Source: Tunturiibacter empetritectus (GTDB lineage Bacteria > Acidobacteriota > Terriglobia > Terriglobales > Acidobacteriaceae). Taken from it: DNA of 64,000 nucleotides. The notes under the pieces were generated by a model, which had not been told where the DNA came from, searched no databases, and saw nothing but the letters and a program-made list of their open reading frames with translations. The position numbers and the translations under genes were made by a program. Positions 38,618 to 44,284 of this stretch are shown one piece after another. Position 1 is the first letter of the stretch. Every line of letters begins with the position of its first letter. Location of the stretch: contig NZ_JACHDZ010000001.1 in the NCBI RefSeq assembly GCF_014201375.1, forward strand, positions 124,001 to 188,000, in the 5' to 3' direction.

Positions 38618-39778
38618 TTAGAGATGGAAGAAGCGGTTTGCACCCAGGACGAGCAGCAGGGTAATGGCGGCGATAGCGACCTCGCCGACAGCTCCCACGA
38701 GGAACGGCCGTGCCCCTTGTTTGAAGAGATCCTTCAGATTTGTCCGTAGACCTACGCCGGCAAAGGTGAGCAGGAAGGCCCAGCGGCTCAGGTTCCCTAA
38801 TGCTGCGAGCTGAGGTTTCGAGAAGCCCAGCGCGGCTACATTGGGGTTGGTCGAAGAGCCCAGGGTGGCCAGCAAGGAGATAAGGAGGAAGCCGAGGACG
38901 AACTTGGGAAACTTCTTCCAGAGGAATGCGGCTTTGTTCTCGAGCTGTGCCGTGGCGGCACGGCTGGCGAGGCCCTTCCGCGCCCACTGGATCGCGTAGG
39001 CCAGCACAACGAAGCCGATGAGGGCGTTGCGGCAGGTCTTGGCGAGGACGGCGAACTTGCCGGCGGCGTCGGAGTAGAGGGCTCCGGCGGCGGTGGCTTC
39101 GGCGGTATTGTCGACCGCGAGACCGGCCCAGAGACCGTAGGCACGATCGCTCATGTGCAGCGCGTGGCCGATGAGCGGAAAGGTGAACAGTGAGATTGCC
39201 CCGAGAGCGAGAATGGCAGCGATAGCAGTCGAGGAGTCCTCTTCGTCGGCGTCAATCGCGCCCTGGGTGGCAATGATGGCAGAGACGCCGCAGACACTGG
39301 ACCCAACGGCCAGCAGCGTAGTGAGTTGGGGACCTAGTTTGAAGGTGCGGCCCAGCCACGTCATGAAGGTCAGCGAGAACGCGAAGGCGACGAAGACCAG
39401 GGCCAGCGAGATGCCGCCGAGTTTGAGGATATCGCCGAGAATAAAGCGTGCGCCGAGCAGGATGATGCCTGCCTTCAGCCAGAACTCGTAGGTTGCCACG
39501 CCCGCGCGAAAGATCCGGGGCAGGCCGACAGTGTTGGCGATGAGGATCCCAAAGAGTATGGCCCAGAGCACATATTCGATGTTGGGGAGGACGTAGTGGT
39601 GAGCCTTGCCGTAGGCGTTGATGAAGTGCTCTACGAACTTGCCGGCGTAGCCGACGACGGCCAGAAGCGCAATGCCCGGAAGCAGGCCGAGGAGAGAGGA
39701 GCGCTCGGCTGGGACGCGGCCGGGGGCGTGTGGGGGATACTCCCTACGAAGATCGGGTAGATCGATTGAGGCGGCCAT
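38618..39778 (-). CDS. YeiH-family putative sulfate exporter
   Basis: 386 residues from the ATG at 39778 (GGAG 6 nt upstream); the longer frame to 39970 runs through the leader. About ten membrane helices; 'LGLLPGIALLAVVGYAGKFVE', 'VLWAILFGILIANTVGLP', 'LKAGIILLGARFILGDILKLG', 'LLAVGSSVCGVSAIIATQGAI' and 'WAGLAVDNTAEATAAGALY' are PF03601 blocks. The family is linked to sulfate/sulfite or organosulfonate export. Preceded by a small membrane protein (39823-39936) and a Cys-rich leader ORF (40032-40058), suggesting sulfur control. Confidence 0.85.
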   Translation of the reverse strand: MAASIDLPDLRREYPPHAPGRVPAERSSLLGLLPGIALLAVVGYAGKFVEHFINAYGKAHHYVLPNIEYVLWAILFGILIANTVGLPRIFRAGVATYEFWLKAGIILLGARFILGDILKLGGISLALVFVAFAFSLTFMTWLGRTFKLGPQLTTLLAVGSSVCGVSAIIATQGAIDADEEDSSTAIAAILALGAISLFTFPLIGHALHMSDRAYGLWAGLAVDNTAEATAAGALYSDAAGKFAVLAKTCRNALIGFVVLAYAIQWARKGLASRAATAQLENKAAFLWKKFPKFVLGFLLISLLATLGSSTNPNVAALGFSKPQLAALGNLSRWAFLLTFAGVGLRTNLKDLFKQGARPFLVGAVGEVAIAAITLLLVLGANRFFHL

Positions 39779-39822
39779 AGACTCTCCTTCGTGCACATTT
39801 GTTGAGGTGTGGACTTCGACGC

Positions 39823-39936
39823 TTACCAGACGACGGATTTGAGCAGCCCGACGCGGACGAGGACGGCCAGAGCAAGGGACAACACAATTGCCCAGGTGTC
39901 GGTAGAAAAAGAGAGACGGGTACGAGGGATGGACAT
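39823..39936 (-). CDS. 37-residue membrane protein upstream of the sulfate exporter
   Basis: Minus-strand frame of 37 codons with AAGGAG 8 nt before the ATG at 39936. The protein has a basic start (MSIPRTRLSFSTD), one hydrophobic helix (TWAIVLSLALAVLVRVGLL) and an aromatic end (KSVVW). The 'D-x-W-A' helix opening resembles the first transmembrane segment seen at the N-terminus of some PF03601 exporters, which the downstream protein lacks. It lies 44 bp upstream of the exporter and may serve as its detached first helix or small subunit. Coding status rests on the ribosome site, frame and helix. Confidence 0.55.
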   Translation of the reverse strand: MSIPRTRLSFSTDTWAIVLSLALAVLVRVGLLKSVVW

Positions 39937-39965
39937 GGAGAAGTCTCCTTGGAGAAAGAGTGGTG

Positions 39966-40041
39966 CACACGAAACGACGTGTGGGCTACAACACTGAACT
40001 TGTAGAAAAAGGGGGTACAGCGAAGGAAGGACTAGCTACAA
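39966..40041 (-). promoter_or_regulatory. Candidate attenuator: mutually exclusive hairpins in the sulfate exporter leader
   Basis: In the minus-strand RNA, CUACAA (40005-40000) can pair either with UUGUAG formed by the last Cys and Ser codons of the leader ORF (40041-40036) or with UUGUAG at 39991-39986 (loop 8 nt). A further stem CACACG/CGUGUG lies at 39983-39966. Competing pairings with a codon run are the layout of a translational attenuator. No U-tract follows the last stem, so termination, if any, would be Rho dependent. Confidence 0.4.
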
Positions 40042-40058
40042 CAACAACGAGTCGGCAT
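40032..40058 (-). CDS. Leader peptide MPTRCCCS with three consecutive Cys codons
   Basis: Nine codons on the minus strand: ATG at 40058, CCG ACT CGT TGT TGT TGT AGC, stop TAG at 40032. It lies about 95 nt before the 37-residue membrane protein and about 250 nt before the YeiH-type exporter. Runs of Cys codons in short 5' ORFs are known cysteine-responsive attenuators in other phyla. The upstream CACCTC gives no good ribosome site, so translation is uncertain; the codon run and RNA structure are what argue for it. Confidence 0.4.
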   Translation of the reverse strand: MPTRCCCS

Positions 40059-40136
40059 GAGGTGCAGCGGCGCGGGTTGGCGGAAGACCGTCATGTCAGA
40101 GTCCAGTGTACACCACGGGGGTAGGGGGTTGGTTGC

Positions 40137-40916
40137 TCAGGCTTTCAAAAGATGCGCTGCCTTCGACTCCGCCTGGCGCCGCAGCACTCCGGCCTTCGCG
40201 TAAAGCTTTTTGATGACGGGACTTCCACTCGGCAGACGGCTCTGAGCTCGATCCAGCAGAAGGAGATAGTCGTGCCATGCGCCGGTTGTCTGCTGGACGT
40301 CCTCCATGCGTTTTGCAAATTTGGCCGCGGTCCTGGACTCCCCGCTGCCGATCTCTGCGATGTACCGTGCGGTCTTGCAGGCCTTCCGGATCGAATGAAG
40401 GTCATCATCTTCGTGAGGATCGAGCCCGCGAACCGCCGGCGCCAGCCAGCTTCGCGCGACATAGATCAGCCTTCCTCCGCTGAGGCTTAAATCGGCGATT
40501 CCCCCAAAGATCATTTCGAGTCTGTCGAGCGCGTGGCGGATCTCATCTTCGTCCGCGCTGATCTGCCGACGCATTCTTTTCACCTTCTTTTTTCTCGATG
40601 CCTCCAGCTGCGTCTCCAACTCAGTCGCGCCACTCGTCGTTTGATAGGCGCGAAGAAGTTCACGGTGAACATCCAGATCGCGGACGTCGCCGGCGATGCG
40701 TCGGATTTTACGGACGGAACGTCTGAAGGCGCTGGATCTCTTCGGCAGAGCGGGCAGGTCGGCCGCCGGAGTCAGTAGTTCGAGCACAGCTTCCAGGCGG
40801 CGATTACTGGAGCGAAGTCTATGGACGGCTTCCGGCTTGGGATTGTCGAGGCAATCGGCCATCGCAGCCTTCAGGATCAGGGAATAGCGAAGAAAGGTGA
40901 TGACCGGCTGCGGCAT
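40137..40916 (-). CDS. CHAD domain protein
   Basis: 259 residues from the ATG at 40916. The CHAD pattern of helices with conserved His and basic residues is clear: 'PKPEAVHRLRSSNRRLEAVLELL', 'KRSSAFRRSVRKIRRIAGDVRDLDVHRELL' in parts, 'DDDLHSIRKACKTARYIAEIG' and 'LQTTGAWHDYLLLLD'-like end. Such domains bind polyphosphate granules; this one has no attached CYTH domain. Upstream of and on the same strand as the sulfate exporter leader. Confidence 0.85.
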   Translation of the reverse strand: MPQPVITFLRYSLILKAAMADCLDNPKPEAVHRLRSSNRRLEAVLELLTPAADLPALPKRSSAFRRSVRKIRRIAGDVRDLDVHRELLRAYQTTSGATELETQLEASRKKKVKRMRRQISADEDEIRHALDRLEMIFGGIADLSLSGGRLIYVARSWLAPAVRGLDPHEDDDLHSIRKACKTARYIAEIGSGESRTAAKFAKRMEDVQQTTGAWHDYLLLLDRAQSRLPSGSPVIKKLYAKAGVLRRQAESKAAHLLKA

Positions 40917-42135: not shown

Positions 42136-42588
42136 ATGAGTGAGTTTGGAACGACGATCGGTATGGTGTTGAAGCAGAAGTCCGGGCCAGTTGCGACGAT
42201 CGCGCCCGATGCCTCCGTCTATCAGGCCATCGAGATGATGGCAGAGCGGCAGGTCGGCGCGCTGCTGGTGATGACCCAGCAATCGCTTCTCGGCATCATC
42301 TCCGAACGGGACTACGCGCGTAAAGTTATCCTGCAGGGCCGCTCTTCGAAGGACACCCCGGTCGCAGAGATCATGAGCAGCCCTGTGATCTCAGTCTCGC
42401 CAAAACACACGGTGGGCGAGTGCATGCGCATCATCACCAAAAATCGCATCCGTCACCTGCCGGTGGTCGAGGGCGGCGCAGTCGTCGGCGTCGTCTCGAT
42501 CGGCGACCTCGTGAACACGGTAATTAGCGAGCAGGAGATGACGATCCGGCATCTCGAAGCCTATATCTCGGGTGCGGCTACGACGTAG
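42136..42588 (+). CDS. CBS-domain protein
   Basis: 150 residues with two CBS domains (about 8-64 and 76-135): '[20 protein letters not shown] ... [21 protein letters not shown]' and '[38 protein letters not shown]'. Such pairs bind adenine nucleotides and regulate partners. Its end overlaps the end of the sulP gene by 11 bp on the opposite strand. Partner unknown. Confidence 0.88.
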
Positions 42589-44284
42589 CGGATGGTTGCG
42601 CAGCAGCGATGGATAACACCGGGTTCTTCGCCGCGAATGCCTCGAAGGCATCGAGCGCGTCGTGCAGCCGATTGAAGATCCATGCGCTGCCGATGGCCTC
42701 GGTCAGGTGATGGCGGTCGAAGTCTGCCCTCGTGTTCCATGGCACTCGAGCGAATCCCAGCTGGACGCCTGCATCTGTCAGATTTTTCTTCAACTCCTCA
42801 ACCACTCGCGCAGCGCTGTAGTCCAGGTTGGTAATCGCCTCGGCATCAACGATGAACCAGCGCACGGTGGTCGGCGAGGGGCCTACCAGGCCGAGAACCT
42901 CGTCGGAGAACCGGCTCGCGTTGGCGTAGAACAGTGCTGCGCCGAAGCGGTACATCACCAGTCCAGGTTCGGTCACTGCGCCCGGAGTCGGAGGAATCAG
43001 CTTCCACACATTGGCCTCGTCCGGAATCATGACGCCGGTGCGGGGATGATAGCTGTGATGCACGATGCGCAGCAGCGACAGGACCATCGCCAGAACGATA
43101 CCGACCTCGACGCCCGCAGTAATCACTACGAGCGTAGTTGTCACAGCAAGCGCGAATTCGGCAGGGCTTTCGCGGAGAATATCCTTCAGGCTGCGCAGCT
43201 TGATCAGCCGAATCGCGACCAGGAAGACCAGTGTGCCGAGTACGCACTGGGGCAGGTATTGAAGCGGCTTGGTTAGAAACAGCAGGACCAGCGCGACGAC
43301 TATCGCCGTGGTGACCTGCGCGATCTGGCTCCGACTGCCAACGCTCTCCACCATGGCGGTCTGCGTGGGGCTGCCGTTGACGACAAACGTCCCACTGAAC
43401 GCAGCGGCTGCGTTGGCCGCGGACAGGCCGATCAGGTCCTGATTCTCGTCCAGCCGTTGATGATGACGCGCTGCATAGATGCGCGAGGTGGCAGCGCTCT
43501 GGGTAAGGATCATGATGGCGCATGAGCCGGCGACCGGGAGCAGCGGTCGGATGTCGCCCCAGCGGACGTCCGGCATCGCAAGGTGAGGCAGGCCGCCCGC
43601 TACCGCGCCAATGATGGCGATGCCATGCCCCGCAAAGTTCCATAACGCGCTGGCTGCTGTGGCCAGAATGACGGCCAGCATTGGCCCCGGTGCCTTCGGG
43701 GCAGACCAGCGCAGAGCAAAGACGAACGCAAGCACAGCAAGGGTCACCGCCAGCGTGTGCAGATGCACCTTCGGGAGGTTGCGGCTGATCTCGACGAACT
43801 GGAGAATCGATCTGCGCGAGGTGACCTGAATGCCAAGCATCTGTCCCAGAACCGCGATGCCGACCTGAAGTCCTATGCCCGTCAGGAAGCCGACGAGCAC
43901 CGTCTGCGAGAGGAAGTCGGCGACGAATCCCAACCCGCACACCCGTCCCAACAGCAGGAAGACGGCGGTGAGCAGCGCTACCAGGCTCGCTAGTGCGACA
44001 TACCGGGTGCTCGCAGTGGGAGCCATGCCGGCCAGTCCGCTGTGAAGGATGGCTGCGGTGGCCGAGTCGGCGGCGACGACTAGAAACCGCGACGAACCGA
44101 AGGTCGCAAAGGCAAACAGCGGTAACAGAAGGGAATAGAGGCCGGTTACGACAGGCATTCCTGCGATCCGGGTATACCCGAGTGCCTGAGGAATGTTCAT
44201 CGCGGCAAACGCAACCCCGGCGACAGCGTCTCGTACAACGCCGATTCGTTTCAACGGTCTGATGCCTTGGAACAGATTCAACAA
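42578..44284 (-). CDS. SulP family anion transporter
   Basis: 568 residues. About 12 hydrophobic segments from '[30 protein letters not shown]' (SulP entry motif) to '[28 protein letters not shown]', then a C-terminal STAS domain (about 430-540, '[27 protein letters not shown]') with the S/T-D-Y motif. Proton- or sodium-linked uptake of sulfate, bicarbonate or similar; the ion is not deducible. Overlaps the CBS gene end by 11 bp. Confidence 0.88.

Follow-up and report, generated by a model that had tools for sequence, protein, structure and literature searches.

Poly-Cys attenuation has so far been described mainly in mycobacteria and their relatives. The closest described systems are the mycobacterial polycysteine leaderless short ORFs (sORFs) of Canestrari et al. 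(2020), as presented in PMC9094748, PMC9031893, and PMC13236596. Leader ORFs with Cys runs had also been reported at the cys operons of Mycobacterium and P. acnes and at cbs of B. longum (Seliverstov et al. 2005, PMC1262725), in a study that mentions Rho-dependent attenuation of the tnaC type, and a further motif, uORFC-8-2, comprises a tandem-Cys uORF located before cysS in Rhodobacterales (PMC8632094). A literature search, which mostly covered sources without their full texts, returned no account of poly-Cys leaders in acidobacteria; leaderless genes averaged 13.3% in the three Acidobacteria genomes of one survey (PMC3160421). Here, we analyzed a stretch of 64,000 nucleotides (hereafter, the window) from the genome of Tunturiibacter empetritectus, a soil bacterium of the Acidobacteriota, in which the poly-Cys leader in front of a yeiH-like gene, which encodes a putative sulfur-compound transporter, is, judging from its sequence and from those of its relatives, very probably a sensor of cysteine shortage.

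The leader ORF and its operon

The minus strand of the window carries an upstream ORF (uORF) of 20 codons, MTVFRQPAPLHLMPTRCCCS, at 40032..40094, with the frame open from the ATG at 40094-40092 to the TAG at 40032 and a Cys run of TGT TGT TGT at 40046-40038. The first-pass annotation had recognized a nine-codon frame encoding MPTRCCCS, the letters (ATG CCG ACT CGT TGT TGT TGT AGC TAG, minus strand, 40058-40032) and positions of which are correct, but this peptide is the tail of MTVFRQPAPLHLMPTRCCCS, and the true ORF is the longer one from the ATG at 40094. In having a short ORF with consecutive Cys codons ahead of an operon, the window agrees with polycysteine leaderless sORF attenuators.

Both genes that had been annotated behind the leader are present on the same strand. 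The first (39823..39936) encodes a 37-residue membrane protein, MSIPRTRLSFSTDTWAIVLSLALAVLVRVGLLKSVVW, has AAGGAG as its Shine-Dalgarno (SD) site at 39950-39945, and gave no match to Pfam or NCBIfam. The second (38618..39778) encodes a transporter of 386 amino acids that matched PF03601 (E 1.6e-75) and scored 107.2 bits with TIGR00698, under the curated cut-off of 232.6, so that the cautious label for it is 'YeiH-like, PF03601'. The window is closely akin to Edaphobacter lichenicola, three strains of that name having YeiH-like proteins with 97-98% identity to this one. A similar small ORF preceded yeiH in 71 of 103 loci, compared with 37 of 103 for the Cys run, making the small protein the more constant partner of the transporter. 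Members of this small membrane protein family end in approximately ..LLVRxGxxKxxPW.

Within the bacterial family, yeiH was present in 35 of 150 genomes. The idea that YeiH might be the sole route of sulfate uptake was not supported, as SulP was present in 22 of the 35 genomes with yeiH and in 69 of the 115 without it, while CysT was present in none of the former and nine of the latter (p 0.12). A fused sat-apsK gene was rarer alongside yeiH (1/35 genomes, versus 39/115 without; Fisher p 1.2e-4, uncorrected for kinship). Additionally, a gene for a SulP-type permease lies in the window at 42578-44284, about 2.5 kb upstream of the leader and on the same strand, and is the only PF00916 match in the genome at E up to 1e-30.

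Conservation, codon choice, and start of the uORF

The loci compared comprised 80 YeiH-like relatives from the genome collection and 30, the window included, from genomes of the same family, and yielded 101 upstream regions of 350 nt that were long enough and distinct. A Cys run, defined as an open frame whose last seven codons before the stop hold three or more Cys, a pair among them, was present in 34 of these 101 regions, and hence limited to about one third of them; 100 dinucleotide shuffles averaged 1.34 such regions and never exceeded 5, and on the opposite strand the run was seen in 1/101. Clusters of other residues also occurred before stops on the sense strand (in 28 of the 101 regions for Ser, 23 for Leu, and 14 for Arg), with shuffling applied to Cys alone. 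The earlier proposal that an acidobacterium has a leader ORF sensing cysteine withstood this test of conservation, and the comparison with yeiH leaders of relatives that had been suggested alongside it bore out the recurrence of the Cys-codon run but not the retention of a CUACAA/UUGUAG pairing.

Leaders in relatives include MTVSRQLATLHLMPTRCCCS, MRAPLSSVASLDVRACCCL, and MKSRVQLVHSIVAARLSACCCR, and variants of the run, such as CCCL, CCCCCR, and CCRCR, still read as Cys. Four loci (L048, L061, L065, and L072) had a second Cys cluster or extra residues between the run and the stop, e.g., ARTRCCCTGHSCLR, and variants of this kind are not all included in the stop-proximal counts. The comparison of base composition used all 35 leaders, 33 were retained after dropping L025 and L061, and 30, with uORFs of 17-25 codons, after also removing L043, which had no in-frame ATG for that length, and L011 and L018, taken to duplicate L097 and L077, although these two had themselves been excluded earlier.

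Outside the Cys run, the peptide drifts without third-position bias (14, 10, and 10 variable columns over 19 codons in 12 leaders). This bears on a different reading, in which the Cys-rich peptide would sense metal or thiol stress and not Cys-tRNA. A paper has appeared on an exported protein that senses copper while nascent (PMC9973294). More generally, Cys runs are able to bind metals, and copper operons have Cys-rich leader ORFs that sense metal. The drift of the peptide and the identity of the partner genes, which belong to cysteine biosynthesis, argue against this reading and leave it improbable.

The codons of the run are strongly biased. Cys codons within the last eight uORF codons of the 30 leaders were TGT 85 : TGC 8, versus TGT 3 : TGC 64 in their yeiH genes (Fisher p about 1e-31, computed over related and so non-independent leaders). 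The bias was weaker elsewhere, at 26 : 10 before cysK and 61 : 22 at the carrier-moeB junction discussed below. Wobble reading of UGU might heighten the sensitivity of the run to charged tRNA-Cys. The same bias could be expected if the UGU repeat acted as untranslated RNA, either as a protein site or as a structure, but the run is in frame with an ATG spaced from a -10 element, the ORFs keep to 17-25 codons, and the variants keep the Cys reading, such that we consider a purely RNA-level role very unlikely.

The ATG at 40094 lies 10 nt after a -10-like hexamer, TACACT (40105..40110, minus strand), which has no -35 match and indicates that the uORF is probably leaderless; a consensus scan at the window leader found no sigma-70 consensus promoter. 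An in-frame ATG was located 48-80 nt before the stop in 32 of the 33 Cys-run leaders, five of which had more than one, and in 29 of these 32 the in-frame ATG lying farthest upstream had a TAnMnH hexamer before it, compared with 24 of 191 control ATGs. This recount involved no preference among start codons, whereas the count of 29/30 among the 30 leaders was favored by preferring an ATG with a -10-like motif where several were possible. ATGs with a -10-like hexamer at 40-85 nt before the stop were in frame with the Cys run in 32/33, a count to which 30 leaders selected for having an in-frame ATG contributed. The gap from the best hexamer to the ATG was 7-12 nt in 27 of the 29 scored among the 30 leaders, the scoring having chosen TGTACA (gap 12) for the window instead of TACACT (gap 10). 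Moreover, SD-like motifs preceded 4/30 uORFs versus 30/30 small membrane ORFs. With a promoter spacing that fits in 29/32 leaders, although the window has no -35 match, the start is probably leaderless, and since a leaderless ORF needs no ribosome site, the absence of one, seen as a weakness in the first-pass annotation, largely ceases to count against the proposal.

The leader RNA and the proposed switch

In the original model, a classical attenuator was envisaged in which UUGUAG in the Cys-Ser codons (40041-40036) and a second UUGUAG (39991-39986) compete for CUACAA (40005-40000). All three elements exist in the window at these positions. However, between the stop and the next ATG, CUACAA was present in 1 of 33 leaders, that of the window itself, and the second UUGUAG in 3/33; the whole-leader fold of the window had a z of only -1.09, and no intrinsic terminator, with the hairpin and U-tract of a classical attenuator, was found in 39700-40300. 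We therefore rejected the pairing, and this form of attenuation is hardly credible here. Searches with Rfam models found nothing in 39700-40250 at E up to 1, and among 20 yeiH loci without the Cys run they returned two tRNAs only.

What does recur is a bias in composition. The region from the uORF stop to the SD site of the next ORF (39951..40031, minus strand) is a G-poor, pyrimidine-rich tract and a candidate region for Rho loading or occlusion; the window leader has a G fraction of 0.15 and a C fraction of 0.35. Across the yeiH leaders with a Cys run (n=35), G was 0.16 and C 0.36, versus 0.25 and 0.28 in 47 without the run (p 1e-10 and 4e-6, kinship uncorrected). Leaders of cysK showed G of 0.18 with the run (n=8) versus 0.25 without (n=22; p 0.006, kinship uncorrected), and C of 0.30 versus 0.27 (p 0.057). 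The top enriched k-mers were polypyrimidines, e.g., TCTCCC in 29/33 versus 13/48 (one mismatch allowed, no correction for multiple testing). A C-rich, G-poor tract beside the uORF stop is what characterizes a Rho-dependent, tnaC-like attenuator, and the tract suggests Rho-dependent or other occlusion-type attenuation.

Near relatives have a hairpin within this tract. In the window it is CACACG-UCGUUU-CGUGUG (39966..39983, minus strand), without a U-tract, and its equivalents, of changing sequence, lie just before the SD site. The mean z was -2.19 in 11 near leaders and -1.16 over all 33, with 16/33 below -1. Covariation was slight, with one pair changed on both sides in six aligned copies, as also occurred in 86 of 500 shuffles. 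An A-rich motif between stop and SD, spotted by eye, was discarded, as four of five patterns for it were not clearly enriched (e.g., 11/33 versus 22/48); the one enriched pattern (9/33 versus 1/48) included pyrimidines.

At tnaC, the ribosome stalls near the stop codon, a Rho site lies right behind, and the signal is free tryptophan. A comparable switch can be proposed for the window. Transcription would start at the ATG at 40094 or a few bases before it, and ribosomes would load at the 5' end and translate 16 codons as far as UGU UGU UGU. With ample Cys-tRNA, they would finish and depart at once, exposing the pyrimidine-rich tract behind the stop, and the exposed tract would lower expression of the 37-residue membrane protein and the YeiH-like transporter, most likely by Rho-dependent early termination as at tnaC. 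With Cys-tRNA scarce, a ribosome would stall on UGU, covering the stop and the first bases of the tract, and the operon would be expressed. The sequences themselves show a conserved ORF, its spacing from the -10 element, its preference for UGU, and the composition of the tract, and a cysteine-sensing, probably leaderless poly-Cys leader is well supported; the transcription start, the stalling, and the direction and effector of control are what we infer. Weighing against the model are the confinement of the run to about one third of yeiH regions, the clusters of other residues, the weaker UGU bias at other genes, two weak cases at cysK, sat regions at shuffle level, the unchanged SD accessibility in predicted folds, a window leader with neither a sigma-70 consensus promoter nor an intrinsic terminator, no second leader among the matches examined in this genome, and the rarity of sat alongside yeiH. 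We nevertheless regard the leaderless poly-Cys sensor ORF model as a whole as likely, and the operon is probably switched on at low cysteine; Rho may be the effector, an assignment that falls somewhat short of probable.

At the effector step alone, an alternative that needs no Rho is translational attenuation, whereby AAGGAG would pair with a pyrimidine-rich sequence near the uORF start or stop and be unmasked by a stalled or queued ribosome. Mycobacterial cysteine genes are described as being under such control in PMC13236596. In the fold predicted for the window, the uORF start is base-paired to the SD region, and the SD was mostly paired in the predictions (mean unpaired 0.18). Yet masking the stall site did not free the predicted SD, its accessibility going from 0.180 to 0.181 (n=33), and the duplex of uORF start and SD, which is inflated by the CAUG in both start sites, showed no advantage of cognate over exchanged pairs (p 0.21, 30 leaders). 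Neither unmasking by a stalled ribosome nor a cognate-specific start-SD pairing was thus retained, and translational attenuation is a possible effector step that we rate as slightly less probable than Rho.

Cys runs at other genes and relation to known systems

Genes of sulfur metabolism follow such runs in relatives, as they do in polycysteine sORF attenuators: cysK, one sat-apsK (ATP sulfurylase/APS kinase), and a ThiS-type carrier with a MoeB-like (MoeB/MoeZ-type) partner. Eight of 30 cysK upstream regions contained a Cys run (shuffles averaged 0.29 and never exceeded 1); Arg clusters before stops, counted without shuffles, also reached 8/30, and two of the eight Cys cases are weak (L227, CAGTCC; L232, RACCF). 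The gene at L187 is cysteine synthase A, followed by a cysE-like gene named from its sequence. For sat, runs were present in 2/28 regions, not above shuffles (maximum 2), and sat leaders were rejected as general members of the set, although one bifunctional sat-apsK gene (L180) is preceded by CCCCCR.

We also scanned the junction between a ThiS-type carrier (PF02597) and a ThiF-rhodanese protein. Among the 30 best matches to the L172 carrier, its own locus included as L252, four had runs fused behind the carrier's GG; mononucleotide shuffles reached at most 1 in 200, and unshuffled clusters of other residues numbered Arg 10, Ala 8, Ser 6, and Leu 5 of 30. In 23 further hand-chosen junction loci, several of them chosen because an earlier pattern had matched there, ten runs were convincing, four fused and six in separate ORFs. 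An eleventh, at L300, lies within the next gene. Cys-rich tails resembling CCPLAACCCR stand behind the carrier GG at L172, L190, L253, L254, L272, L283, L285, and L290; this GG would have to be freed for the carrier to work. Separate poly-Cys ORFs lie between the carrier and a MoeB/ThiF-like gene at L178, L179, L294, L296, L297, and L298, of which L178 alone was domain-scanned (ThiF plus rhodanese).

A strict pattern applied to 396 genomes of the phylum gave four matches, and its reversed control one. Three (L302-L304) are poly-Cys ORFs, e.g., MISRRGSAESCCCCR, before genes that start like an outer-membrane barrel with a carboxypeptidase-regulatory domain; the gene at L303 (also numbered L315), the only one of the three scanned, matched PF25183 and PF13620 (CarboxypepD_reg), and at L303 and L304 the Cys run is directly 3' of yeiH. 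The fourth, L305, looks like chance. At L173, MTFILSNPTRVAGTALVPCCCCR precedes a 583-aa protein that by eye resembles a porin and that matched nothing in Pfam. Of 20 pattern matches inspected by eye, hand-picked mostly for tails resembling that of the window, eight appeared to be real leaders or tails (L172, L173, L174, L178, L179, L180, L187, and L190) and 12 chance-like.

In the window's own genome, a looser pattern gave 69 matches versus 53 for the reversed pattern, and no second such leader was recognized among the 38 of the 69 that were examined. Thirty of these reduced to 20 after setting aside nine that end in TGG, with no stop, and one duplicate, and the yeiH site alone among the 20 was uncovered by another open frame of at least 100 codons, L115 being covered merely by a 122-codon antisense frame. 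The other eight lay, by eye, in or opposite long frames.

Taken together, these loci may tentatively be read as a cysteine-limitation regulon in Acidobacteriota whose common element is a stall site of Cys codons close to a stop. Its arrangement would vary from a leaderless uORF at yeiH and a uORF before cysK to a uORF within an operon, separating a ThiS/MoaD-type carrier from its MoeB-like partner or yeiH from an outer-membrane protein, and to a Cys tail directly behind the carrier GG, by which the carrier gene would be its own sensor. On this tentative reading, the YeiH-like transporter and its 37-residue partner would, at low cysteine, serve sulfur acquisition or the relief of assimilation-derived sulfite, and not sulfate export. 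The name 'sulfate exporter' traces to a proposal in Paracoccus (PMC11582611), and in Salmonella YeiH is reported to be needed for sulfite resistance (PMC12880088). As yeiH apparently belongs to the cysteine-limitation gene set, the exporter name is questionable here; if a gene is under common control with cysteine synthase, one would expect it to work in acquisition or to relieve the sulfite that assimilation produces. If the reading is right, poly-Cys attenuation is not an actinobacterial speciality, and the YeiH-like transporter, the 37-residue membrane protein, and the outer-membrane proteins, all poorly characterized, are parts of the response to cysteine limitation. The leader would then be a mark of membership in that response, through which the role of 'putative sulfate exporters' could be tested directly.

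Compared with known systems, the proposed switch shares with tnaC a stall near the stop codon and a possible Rho site right behind it, while its signal would be a shortage of Cys-tRNA and not free tryptophan. Like uORFC-8-2 as described in PMC8632094, the window has a uORF with tandem Cys codons, but the terminator U-run and mostly UGC codons of that motif were not found here. The leaders reported in PMC1262725 likewise have Cys codons near the stop, no terminator, and pyrimidine motifs considered as Rho sites; those motifs are said there not to be conserved, whereas pyrimidine enrichment extends over 33 leaders in our set. The mycobacterial polycysteine sORFs, as portrayed in the papers cited above, have in common with ours a short ORF, leaderless there and probably so here, contiguous Cys codons, and several targets among cysteine biosynthesis genes. 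The leaders described here differ in belonging to another phylum, in using mostly UGU, in having the run sometimes fused to the sulfur carrier of carrier-moeB operons, and in targets that include the 37-residue membrane protein with the YeiH-like transporter and outer-membrane proteins. The window leader thus resembles the mycobacterial polycysteine attenuators, and we provisionally assign it to them.
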